From: Sphingopyxis terrae subsp. terrae NBRC 15098
GTDB taxonomy: Bacteria; Pseudomonadota; Alphaproteobacteria; Sphingomonadales; Sphingomonadaceae
Length of the DNA: 64,000 bases
Reading direction: 5' to 3'
Assembly (NCBI RefSeq): GCF_001598815.1
Contig: NZ_BCZQ01000018.1
Span: 62,001 to 126,000 of the forward strand
In this document: piece after piece, positions 44,621 to 46,972 of the stretch
Layout: the number at the start of each line of letters is the position of its first letter
Position numbering within the stretch: position 1 is the stretch's first letter
Made by a program: the position numbers and the translations under genes
Notes under the pieces: generated by a model
What the model was told of the DNA's origin: nothing
The model's input: the letters and a program-made list of their open reading frames with translations, nothing else
Databases searched by the model: none

Positions 44621-45529
44621 TTAATCTGAAAGGAACTTGTCGACCGCGTCGGCAAAGGCCTCGGGTTGATCGAGCATGATGAAATGGCGGCTGCCGTCGA
44701 TCCGCTTCAGCTTCACGGTCTTCGCCGTTGTAAAGGCACCTTTGTAGAGGCCATCGACCATCGCTTCGGGCATCGCGCTGGCATCGAGCGGATAGAGCAT
44801 CGTGAACGGCGCAGCGATCGCGCTCAGCTCGGGTCGAAGATCGGTGGTCATGTCATCATACATCAGCTGCACCGCCACCTTCGCGTTCGCCGCCCGCGTC
44901 CACGCCTTGACCTGCGCACGGCCGGCGTCGGTGGCCGACATTATCTGCAGCGTCCGGTCGTCGGCCTCGGCGCTTTCCCGTGCGGCGAGCATCGTCTGCA
45001 TCGCGGCGGCCTGCGGCTCGACGTCGGCGACGGTCGCGGTCGGACCGAACAGAATCCCGAAAAAGGGCAGGCTGTCGACGACCATCAGCCGGCCGACTTC
45101 CTGGGGGGCGCGGGCGGCGATCATCATGGCGGTCAGCCCGCCGAGCGAATGGCCGATGACCGCCGGAGCGGGGCGGCCTTGGTCGACGATGCAATCGTCG
45201 ATATAGTCCGCAATCTCGCGCATCATCGGCTCGAGTATCGGGCCCTCGGCATTCAGGCCCGGCGCATCGCCGCCGAATCCGCGCACCTCGACAAGGTGCA
45301 GGCGATGCGTCGCTTTCAGCCGTTCGGCAGTGGGCGCCCAGACCGCGCGCGGCGAGGACAGGCCGGGGATCAGCACGACATCGGGACCGTCGCCTTCGAC
45401 CTCGACCGTGATCCGCTTGCCTTCGAGCAGGCCGGTGCCGCATCCGGCGGCGCCTTCCGCGGCATCGGCGCGCGGTGCGATGGTGGCGATCAGCAAGATG
45501 AACAGCGCGGCGATGGAAAGTCGTTTCAT
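44621..45529 (-). CDS. Exported alpha/beta hydrolase
   Basis: The protein has 302 residues. The signal peptide is MKRLSIAALFILLIATIAPR followed by ADA. VVLIPGLSSPRAVWAPTAER holds the oxyanion residues, PAVIGHSLGGLTAMMIAARA the nucleophile Ser, and DGSRHFIMLDQPEAFADAVD the catalytic His. Four Cys occur, so disulfides are possible. It is 4 bases downstream of the XRE regulator and appears to be the last gene of that four-gene unit. The substrate is unknown. Confidence 0.85.
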   Translation of the reverse strand: MKRLSIAALFILLIATIAPRADAAEGAAGCGTGLLEGKRITVEVEGDGPDVVLIPGLSSPRAVWAPTAERLKATHRLHLVEVRGFGGDAPGLNAEGPILEPMMREIADYIDDCIVDQGRPAPAVIGHSLGGLTAMMIAARAPQEVGRLMVVDSLPFFGILFGPTATVADVEPQAAAMQTMLAARESAEADDRTLQIMSATDAGRAQVKAWTRAANAKVAVQLMYDDMTTDLRPELSAIAAPFTMLYPLDASAMPEAMVDGLYKGAFTTAKTVKLKRIDGSRHFIMLDQPEAFADAVDKFLSD

Positions 45530-45533
45530 GGGT

Positions 45534-45725
45534 TCAGTCTTTCAGGAATATGGCTTCGATCGGCAGGCCGAACAGGTCGGAAATGCGGAAGGCGAGCGGC
45601 AGCGACGGATCATATTTGCCGGTTTCGATGGCGTTGACCGACTGGCGCGACACCTCGAGCCGGTCGGCGAGGTCCTGCTGGCTCCAGTCACGCTCGGCGC
45701 GCAGAACCTTCAGGCGGTTCTTCAC
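45534..45725 (-). CDS. Small XRE-family repressor (HTH only)
   Basis: The protein has 63 residues from a GTG at 45725 (V/MKNRLKVLRAERDWSQQDLA). The HTH is SQQDLADRLEVSRQSVNAIE followed by TGKYDPSLPLAFRISDLFG and the end LPIEAIFLKD, the compact YozG-like form with no sensor domain. Such short regulators are usually encoded beside small membrane proteins and act as autorepressors. It overlaps the upstream membrane-protein gene by 4 bases and precedes the hydrolase by 4. Confidence 0.88.
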   Translation of the reverse strand: MKNRLKVLRAERDWSQQDLADRLEVSRQSVNAIETGKYDPSLPLAFRISDLFGLPIEAIFLKD

Positions 45726-46132
45726 GCGCACCCCGCATCGCCAAGCGTCAGCTTGTTGACCAGCGCGCCGACGCCCAGCCCGAAGCACCAGACCGGAAAG
45801 ACCCAGAAGATGGGAACCCGGGAAACGTCGGTATAGAGTTCCAATATGCCCCAGGTCGATGCCAGCGAAAGCGTCAACCCGGTCGCGACCAGCGCCTTGC
45901 GTATCTCCAGCATCCGCAGATATTCGTCGCTGAGTTCGGTCAGGAAGCGGCCGATCGACCAGATCACGCCAAGCACGGCGAGGCCGGGGATCAGGGCGAT
46001 GGCGATAGTCGCCGGGCTTGCGCTCGCGCCTTTCGGAAGGACGCTGCTGGCAAGGAGGATCGCCGCGACATAAGCGGCCGACATCGGGATCAGGCGCCGG
46101 ACATAGCGGCGCTGGGCGAGATTCATCGCCAT
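45722..46132 (-). CDS. Four-helix membrane protein paired with XRE repressor
   Basis: The protein has 136 residues from the ATG at 46132. Helices are seen at SAAYVAAILLASSVLP, TIAIALIPGLAVLGVIWSIG, ALVATGLTLSLASTWGILEL and VPIFWVFPVWCFGLGVGALV. Between helices 2 and 3 lies a charged loop (LTELSDEYLRMLEIRKAL). The layout recalls DUF2178-type proteins encoded next to small XRE regulators, but I do not claim membership. It overlaps the repressor gene by 4 bases and begins 2 bases after the 56-residue gene ends. Confidence 0.75.
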   Translation of the reverse strand: MAMNLAQRRYVRRLIPMSAAYVAAILLASSVLPKGASASPATIAIALIPGLAVLGVIWSIGRFLTELSDEYLRMLEIRKALVATGLTLSLASTWGILELYTDVSRVPIFWVFPVWCFGLGVGALVNKLTLGDAGCA

Positions 46133-46134
46133 GG

Positions 46135-46305
46135 TCAGGTCGCTTCCCGCGTGCGACAGTGTTTCGGCGTCGTTGCGATCATGATCGCGGGCAGCACGAT
46201 GATCAGCATTGTCGCGATATTCTCGGGAATGATGTCGAGGATCTGCGCAAAGGCGACGCACATGATGGCGAGGGCCCAGCAAAGAGCACGGAAAATCGGC
46301 GGCAT
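46135..46305 (-). CDS. 56-residue membrane peptide leading the XRE operon
   Basis: The frame opens at the ATG at 46305 and ends at 46135, 56 codons. AAGGGAG lies 8 bases upstream. The peptide reads MPPIFRALCWALAIMCVAFA, QILDIIPENIATMLIIVLPA and IMIATTPKHCRTREAT, giving two hydrophobic helices and a basic tail. Its strong ribosome site and tight spacing to the next gene (TGA then ATG 2 bases later) support translation. No family is recognised. Confidence 0.65.
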   Translation of the reverse strand: MPPIFRALCWALAIMCVAFAQILDIIPENIATMLIIVLPAIMIATTPKHCRTREAT

Positions 46306-46336
46306 CGGTCAAGCTCCCTTGTTAAACAGTAAAGGA

Positions 46337-46387
46337 ACATTGACACAGGGATTCGTTCTTGTCAAGCGACATTGACACAATGACAAG
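46337..46387 (-). promoter_or_regulatory. Repeated operator upstream of the XRE operon
   Basis: The 11-mer ACATTGACACA occurs twice, at 46337-46347 and 46369-46379, exactly 32 bases (three helical turns) apart. Between them TGTCAA (46360-46365) faces TTGACA (46372-46377) as a dyad with a 6-base centre, and CTTGTCA/TGACAAG (46358-46364, 46381-46387) form outer arms. On the minus strand TTGACA at 46365-46360 could be the -35 box. It is a good candidate for autoregulation by the XRE protein. Confidence 0.55.
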
Positions 46388-46409
46388 CGAGCCAATCGCG
46401 CTGGAGGCG

Positions 46410-46823
46410 TCAGCCTTTCGCGTGCCGCAATCGCCAGTTGACGATGTGTGCGCTGGCGAGGGCGATCGCGCCGAGGGTGGTGAACAGGCGGTCGCCGGTT
46501 TCGGGGGCGAGGCCGCCGATCCAGCCTTCGTGCGCGGCGAGTCCGGCGGCGAGGAGGGCAAGGCCGATCAGTGCCGCGGCGACGGGATAGCGATGGCCGT
46601 GGTGCCGCTGGCCGTCGGCCAGCGCCAGCGCCGCCGCGGGCGCGGCAAGCAGCAGGATCACCGCATGAAAGCTCTCGGGCAGCGAGAGCCAGGCGCTCAG
46701 CGCGGGCGCCGCGAGCAGGAGCAGCGGCAGTGCGAGGCAATGGACGAGGCAGGCGAGCGACAGCCCGACTCCGATAAGGTCGGCGGCGCGCGAGCGCAGC
46801 GAGGGGCGGGCGGGGAGGCACAT
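46410..46823 (-). CDS. MerC-domain membrane protein
   Basis: The protein has 137 residues from the ATG at 46823 (MCLPARPSLRSRAADLIGVG); an ATG at 46862 would add 13 residues. ACLVHCLALPLLLLAAPALS is the MerC metal-binding helix with its Cys, HAVILLLAAPAAALALADGQ, RHHGHRYPVAAALIGLALLA and late TLGAIALASAHIVNWRLRHA complete four helices. MerC proteins move mercury in mer operons, but lone chromosomal copies are often linked to zinc control. No merA or merR is near. A dyad lies 40 bases upstream. Confidence 0.83.
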   Translation of the reverse strand: MCLPARPSLRSRAADLIGVGLSLACLVHCLALPLLLLAAPALSAWLSLPESFHAVILLLAAPAAALALADGQRHHGHRYPVAAALIGLALLAAGLAAHEGWIGGLAPETGDRLFTTLGAIALASAHIVNWRLRHAKG

Positions 46824-46862: not shown

Positions 46863-46881
46863 AATGATACATTGTATCATT
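46863..46881. promoter_or_regulatory. 19-bp perfect dyad between merC and thrS
   Basis: AATGATACA (46863-46871) and TGTATCATT (46873-46881) are exact complements around one T. The AT-rich 9-1-9 form resembles Fur/Zur-family sites. It is 40 bases upstream of the merC start used here and 92 before the thrS ATG. Confidence 0.55.
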
Positions 46882-46972
46882 GCAAGCCCTCGCGGTGAAA
46901 ACGGCCCTTGCCGCTGCTTTCGCGCGCTGGCAAAGGGGCGCAGTTTATTCCGCCAGAAAGGCCCGATTTCCA

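Follow-up and report, generated by a model that had tools for sequence, protein, structure and literature searches.

Within the window, i.e. the whole stretch of 64,000 nucleotides that was analysed, we characterized a short operon on the minus strand that encodes a small membrane protein next to a Cro/CI-type (XRE) repressor, behind a tandem operator. Judged from sequence comparison across the genus Sphingopyxis, the membrane gene is swapped as a unit while the operator and the repressor stay nearly constant. The locus had previously been noted for its close-set genes under a repeated operator. This observation was confirmed as real and conserved, and it turned out to be stronger than the preliminary description had assumed; by its evolution the locus is more interesting than by that first description. 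On balance we lean towards an auto-repressed membrane-signalling operon, whose receptor would be exchanged as a unit.

Gene content of the operon

The four close-set genes that had been described are all present, on the minus strand between 44621 and 46305. The first gene (46135..46305) encodes a membrane protein of 56 aa with two hydrophobic stretches, which accompanies the module in part of the loci. It had no match in Pfam, NCBIfam, PADLOC or PHROGs. It is followed by the gene of a four-helix membrane protein of 136 aa (45722..46132), which is proposed to be a sensor and to work together with the repressor, and for which nothing above cut-off was obtained from the same four collections, the only Pfam rows having E-values of 0.21 and 0.28. 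The repressor gene (45534..45725, 63 aa) begins with a GTG codon and overlaps the 136-aa gene by 4 bp. An exported alpha/beta hydrolase of 302 aa (44621..45529; PF12697, 5.5e-18), whose signal peptide was read by eye and which had no match in PADLOC either, is encoded by the final operon gene wherever that gene is present.

The repressor is of the CylR2 type. It matches the HTH_3 family (PF01381, 2.8e-15), and its best solved relative by sequence is PDB entry 9k3w (E 6.7e-24), “Transcriptional regulator, PbsX family”, a likeness of the XRE sequence alone. CylR2 itself (1utx, 66 aa) was matched over residues 3-61 with an E-value of 1.8e-12. The best matches in PADLOC and PHROGs, HTH_VI (1.9e-12) and phrog_3 (1.4e-14), were regarded as generic HTH and set aside as a specific identity. 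The repressor gene is under strong purifying selection, with median dN/dS values of 0.11 and 0.12 from simple pairwise estimates.

For a neighbouring MerC-domain gene, which ends at 46410 on the minus strand, a separate candidate promoter (TTCACC-17-TACAAT) was noted at 46864-46899. Near its candidate -10 element lies the palindrome ATGATACATTGTATCAT, which bears no relation to the TGTCAA operator.

The operator array and the putative promoter region

Upstream of the first gene two tandem 18-bp dyads of the type TGTCAA-N6-TTGACA, termed O1 and O2, are found on the minus strand with their starts 32 bp apart. O1, TGTCAATGTCGCTTGACA, occupies 46360..46377, and its right half TTGACA (46360-46365) is a candidate -35 box. 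O2, TGTCAATGTTCCTTTACT, is located 32 bp downstream at 46328..46345 and overlaps the candidate -10 element and the likely start site. An exact 11-bp repeat that occurs twice with an offset of 32 bases had been described and was found as stated: the 11-mer ACATTGACACA lies at 46337-46347 and at 46369-46379, again with starts 32 bp apart. The single dyad that had been placed between the repeats was an error, since each 11-mer overlaps its own complete dyad. On the same strand, an upstream block, GATTGG-N4-CTTGTC (46382..46397), emerged from the column conservation of 33 non-redundant loci, drawn from 40 loci with a spacing of 32. Downstream of the dyads, CAAGGGAGCTTGAC (46308..46321, minus strand) contains the Shine-Dalgarno sequence and then a third TTGAC half-site ahead of the first start codon; it is conserved in the same set of loci.

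The array had also been described as overlapping a likely -35 box. Indeed, the right half of O1 reads TTGAC, as in the consensus -35, in 52 of 52 loci, but a consensus sigma-70 promoter scan reported no promoter at the array, which weighs against the operon being a switch. The candidate -10 element, CAATGT (46342-46337), lies inside O2 behind a 17-bp spacer and agrees with the consensus in 2 of 6 bases. Given the negative scan and this low agreement, the -35/-10 assignment is based on position and conservation. The right half of O2 varies among the 52 loci, being TTTAC in 30, TTGTC in 14 and TTGAC in 8 of them (counted from table and listing). This contrast between the right halves of the two dyads suggests an additional role of O1 in polymerase binding.

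The surroundings of the dyads are conserved to differing degrees. At 43 of the 52 loci O1 is preceded, at a distance of about 10 bp, by a half-site in direct form, which reads TTGTCA or matches any of three variants. At about 6 loci the block upstream of O1 is seen as the reverse complement, GACAAG-N4-CCAATC, as if the site of a further protein functioned in both orientations. TTGAC is found exactly at O2+33, between Shine-Dalgarno sequence and start codon, in 44 of the 52 loci, irrespective of whether the 56-aa gene or the membrane gene leads the operon.

Conservation of the array across genomes

Within the window alone the rarity of the array is modest: two matches to the 11-mer with at most one mismatch were obtained in 5 of 100 shuffles, and the dyad with at most two mismatches was found in 11 of 100. 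It is the comparison across genomes that decides. The pattern TGTMAA-N6-TTKACA with at most one mismatch has 6 sites in the 4.08-Mb genome of the window (G000), compared to 2 per strand for the backward-read control. All 6 adjoin XRE/membrane modules: two belong to the array described here, two to the locus L003, and one each to L004 and L002. In front of the L003 paralogue two exact 18-mers are found 34 bp apart. The L002 dyad (G000:C12:69735-69752) is located before a 110-aa exported-looking gene, approximately 0.6 kb upstream of an XRE paralogue of 75% identity that is directly followed by a multi-helix partner.

Upstream of the orthologous Sphingopyxis loci the dyad pair was found in 52 of 52 cases, in none of 1,040 dinucleotide shuffles and in none of 52 downstream controls. 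Its spacing is 32 bp in 40 loci, 33 bp in 10, and 31 and 34 bp in one locus each. Searching with a fixed spacing of 32 bp and at most two mismatches provided a single site in each of 40 of the 80 genus genomes and none for the backward pattern. Compared by eye, none of the 40 is further than about 1 kb from the module XRE; this fixed-32 pattern also missed 12 genomes that carry the module.

Beyond the genus, 24 further loci from Pseudomonadota were available. The dyad with at most two mismatches is present at 22 of them (50 of 960 shuffles) and the dyad pair at 16 (0 of 960), where L084 and L086 were scored as dyad-less though a one-mismatch dyad stands further upstream. A contig set of 41 loci, which shares species with 30 loci of the genus search and is thus not independent of it, gave the dyad at 40 loci (58 of 1,640 shuffles) and the pair at 39 (0 of 1,640). 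At 8 of the 24 wider loci and at 2 of the 41 contig-set loci the 1.1 kb that precede the XRE contain no dyad pair, which counts against a switch.

In principle the dyads may be bound by some regulator besides the operon's own XRE, given that the dyad sequence by itself names no protein and that the genome carries paralogous XREs. The dyads, however, adjoin XRE paralogues and, in other families, relatives of the XRE, and none of the 28 genus genomes that lack the module gave a hit for the 32-bp array. We consider a foreign regulator to be very improbable. For the auto-repressed operon that we favour, the cross-genome comparison strongly supports the part of the preliminary description that concerned a putative autoregulation by the XRE at the repeated operator. 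The 56-aa protein and the hydrolase, which had been counted as part of the self-regulated module, are inconstant.

Distribution of the module and its chromosomal slot

A homologue of the membrane protein (E ≤ 0.001) was detected in 52 of 80 Sphingopyxis genomes. The XRE at an identity of at least 83%, a limit set post hoc once the gap to the next matches was visible, was likewise found in 52 of 80, and by eye these are the same genomes (Fisher P 3e-22). Repressor and membrane protein are thus both held by 52 genomes, while 28 hold neither. The remaining XRE matches in the genus, at 77% identity or less, correspond by identity to the paralogue of the L002 type.

Not all of the four genes co-occur in the way their description as one unit had implied. 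The array, the XRE and the 136-aa protein are constant, while the two outer genes are merely frequent: tblastn matches (E ≤ 1e-4) were obtained at 23 of the 52 loci for the 56-aa protein, a lower bound given so short a query, and at 30 of the 52 for the hydrolase, a lower bound as well. The 22 loci at which the hydrolase had no match at this threshold weigh against the switch.

In most loci the operon is flanked by the same neighbours; in four genomes (G018, G035, G059 and G076) the anchor gene is located on a different contig, as seen by eye. Among the module-less genomes 20 of 28 were retrieved at the neighbouring anchor gene, and in the expected region of all 20 no match to the module proteins was found. 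The 16 module-less gaps that we examined contain no dyad with at most two mismatches. Seven of them are short (81-305 bp) and nine carry a gene of 123-126 aa. By eye this slot gene resembles VOC/glyoxalase-like proteins (L134, L135, L136, L138, L139, L141, L142, L143 and L144). The filling of the same slot by a VOC-like gene suggests that the slot may be open to alternative cassettes.

The patchy occurrence in 52 of 80 genomes, the small overlapping gene pair and the autoregulatory operator are also what would be expected for a toxin-antitoxin-like system, in which a membrane toxin is paired with the XRE as antitoxin and autoregulator. A reviewer reply in Makarova et al. 2009 (PMC2701414, in excerpt) likewise states that membrane-toxin pairs could be novel systems. 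Such a system is nevertheless improbable in our view. The module occupies mostly a single chromosomal slot, and the membrane protein has matches in 1 of 72,556 plasmid records and in 0 of 50,697 phage records. Antitoxin families score the XRE below their cut-offs (TIGR03070 with 40.8 bits vs 71.65, HigA with 20.9 vs 47.7). The membrane gene is under purifying selection (median dN/dS of 0.23 in class A and 0.49 in class B, see below for the classes; simple pairwise estimates), and a hydrolase is found inside the operon.

The membrane protein and its acidic signature

A small multi-helix membrane protein adjoins the XRE at 52 of 52 genus loci. For the 136-aa protein of the window an AlphaFold2 model with a mean pLDDT of 90.3 was obtained, which predicts helices at residues 5-31, 40-66, 70-100 and 108-130. 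In an alignment of 40 family members D69, E70 and R73 are invariant, and in the model the D-E pair forms the beginning of helix 3. Helix 1 opens with arginines 8, 9, 12 and 13, such that the D-E-x-x-R loop is probably cytoplasmic according to the positive-inside rule. Foldseek provided no PDB match to the model with E ≤ 0.001, the best value being 2.4. The VIA-align 2 relatives of the model were rejected, with Z below 8 over 113 chains as is usual for helical bundles.

A search of 150 Pseudomonadota genomes gave XRE matches with E ≤ 1e-12 in 14 of them. At all 24 further loci a predicted membrane protein of at least two helices adjoins the XRE (by eye). In other genera two different membrane-protein genes were seen in tandem before one XRE (L084, L086 and L104). 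Taking the 24 wider loci together with three paralogues, a D-[D/E] motif is found inside the membrane span of 26 of the 27 partners, compared to 4.1 expected from residue shuffles. The sole miss is L003, for which the program took a wrong upstream frame; the likely downstream partner reads YDELNR. At L097 and L099 the motif taken by the program differs from the site picked by eye. The motif lies 56-63 residues into the span in most four-helix proteins and mostly 126-183 residues into it in longer ones. This offset fits the loop between helices 2 and 3 in the modelled protein, and in all others it would fit this loop or the equivalent position after an additional hairpin. The D-[D/E] signature across the partners of this repressor subfamily appears to be new.

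Exchange of the membrane gene

When linked at 50% identity, the 52 membrane proteins of the genus form three groups, all encoded at the same place before the XRE. Class A, to which the protein of the window belongs, comprises 24 loci with mostly 136-137 aa. The 23 proteins of class B have 195-251 aa as called and an extra N-terminal hairpin, and the 5 of class C have mostly 140 aa.

One such exchange is seen between the genome of the window (class A) and G077 (class B). Over approximately 8.7 kb around the gene, in three blocks, their DNA is 94.8-97.2% identical, while their membrane proteins share 39% identity. The similarity breaks off at the first codon of the XRE on one side and close to where the 56-aa gene ends on the other. 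Similar pairs exist among other loci: the DNA downstream is 92.4% identical for L033/L110 (A/C) and 90.1% for L029/L125 (A/B), with membrane proteins of 37% and 41% identity, respectively. For L110/L119 (C/B) the values are 91.5% and 32%. In this last pair the XRE identity amounts to 83% despite the similarity of the DNA, such that the swap may have included part of the XRE.

A tree of the XRE and the following 0.9 kb was built for 26 of the 52 loci, namely those with a hydrolase match of more than 45% identity over more than 200 aligned residues. It contains 9 changes of the A/B label, of which at least 7 are forced by supported branches. The labels do not cluster on it above random, as 370 of 500 shuffles were as low. 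In view of the tandem genes at L084, L086 and L104, an ancestral pair of membrane genes that lost one or the other member is an alternative explanation. At the 52 loci, however, no more than 206 bp separate O2 from the start of the membrane gene (program-called starts), which is too short for a second membrane gene, and replacement is therefore preferred as the more probable course. Exchange of membrane genes between classes within near-identical flanks appears to be new. It fits a recognition or sensing role of the membrane protein.

The same exchange can be read in another way, in which the membrane protein is the regulated product only, be it an exporter, an envelope modifier or an immunity protein, and the XRE responds to a small ligand or regulates itself without mutual contact. 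Small XRE repressors elsewhere autoregulate, and the membrane gene is swapped here with the XRE barely altered (98% identity for the XRE of L013/L042 vs 39% for their membrane proteins). Furthermore, no XRE residue is fixed by the class of the membrane protein. At positions 54 and 55 of the XRE the residues differ in frequency between classes A and B, with M at position 54 at 14 of 23 class B and 2 of 24 class A loci. From the absence of class-fixed residues it follows that a direct contact, if any, would mainly involve the shared part. On the other hand, a helix-turn-helix protein of 63 residues offers scant room for a ligand domain, and a D-[D/E] motif common to otherwise unlike partners suggests a shared function toward the repressor. 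Overall we regard a mere product as rather unlikely.

Proposed mechanism and relation to known systems

For the auto-repressed signalling operon towards which we lean, sequence supports the operator and the way in which it is coupled to the XRE/membrane pair, as well as the gene order and the predicted fold of the membrane protein. We infer repression, a contact between XRE and membrane protein, a signal and a role of the hydrolase in the following way. An XRE dimer would occupy O1 and O2, which are three helical turns apart and built into the -35/-10 regions. Bound XRE would block the promoter and keep the operon low, and with its gene inside the operon the XRE would set its own level. The four-helix protein would be an inner-membrane protein whose D-E-x-x-R loop, which connects helices 2 and 3, points toward the cytoplasm. 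Upon a change of the membrane or binding of an envelope ligand it may loosen the repressor from the DNA, as in the proposal for CylR1/CylR2. The operon including the hydrolase would then be induced, and the hydrolase would have the stimulus as its target, outside the cytoplasm.

A more far-reaching version, which we hold to be unlikely, would treat the locus as a receptor switch with exchangeable parts. Repressor and promoter-operator would form a constant chassis, the receptor classes would be swapped by recombination in the conserved flanks, and the D-E-x-x-R loop would serve as universal adapter. The swaps would then be explained by differences in the envelope ligands that the receptors recognise, for instance rival-derived or self-made molecules.

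The preliminary description suggested a function in envelope stress or competition, which stays putative, and could not name the module. It can be placed among Xre-membrane protein pairs, of which CylR1/CylR2 of Enterococcus faecalis is the one studied example that we found. As here, a CylR2-homologous repressor is paired with a small multi-helix membrane protein. Binding of CylR2 to DNA was reportedly described by Rumpel et al. 2004. The membrane protein of that system has three predicted helices compared to four in the 136-aa protein, and the two are likened by position and helices. The target of CylR1/CylR2 is the divergently read cytolysin (lantibiotic) operon, whereas here both genes of the pair share a single operon, to which the gene of an exported hydrolase is often added. 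According to excerpts of the literature, CylR2 binds its promoter (PMC3709268), and a model in which the membrane protein modulates the repressor was proposed and is unproven (PMC3709268, PMC12304293).

Makarova et al. 2009 list three Xre-membrane protein pairs (PA2784-, YoaS- and PA4076-like) and keep them out of their toxin-antitoxin list (PMC2701414, in excerpt). These pairs share with our locus the Xre repressor, the membrane protein and their conserved adjacency; operator, signature, hydrolase and exchange are absent from the excerpted description. PA2784 appears among regulated genes in excerpts of PMC7685553 and PMC2729926, and no passage on it was found in an excerpt of PMC8041468. In open PubMed Central, by which subscription papers are largely uncovered, we found no study of the operon, the operator or the exchange, and nothing on the paper that belongs to the code 9k3w.

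Significance

Since their listing in 2009, a general function of pairs of mini-repressors and membrane proteins still does not emerge from our searches of the open literature. The locus provides handles for tests: an operator code that lies beside XRE relatives in several Pseudomonadota families, a short acidic signature that may mark a contact loop, and naturally occurring swaps of the receptor between strains with approximately 95% identity around the locus. If the version with exchangeable receptors were true, this would be a recognition or competition locus, and the D-E-x-x-R loop would link any partner to a CylR2-type repressor across Pseudomonadota.
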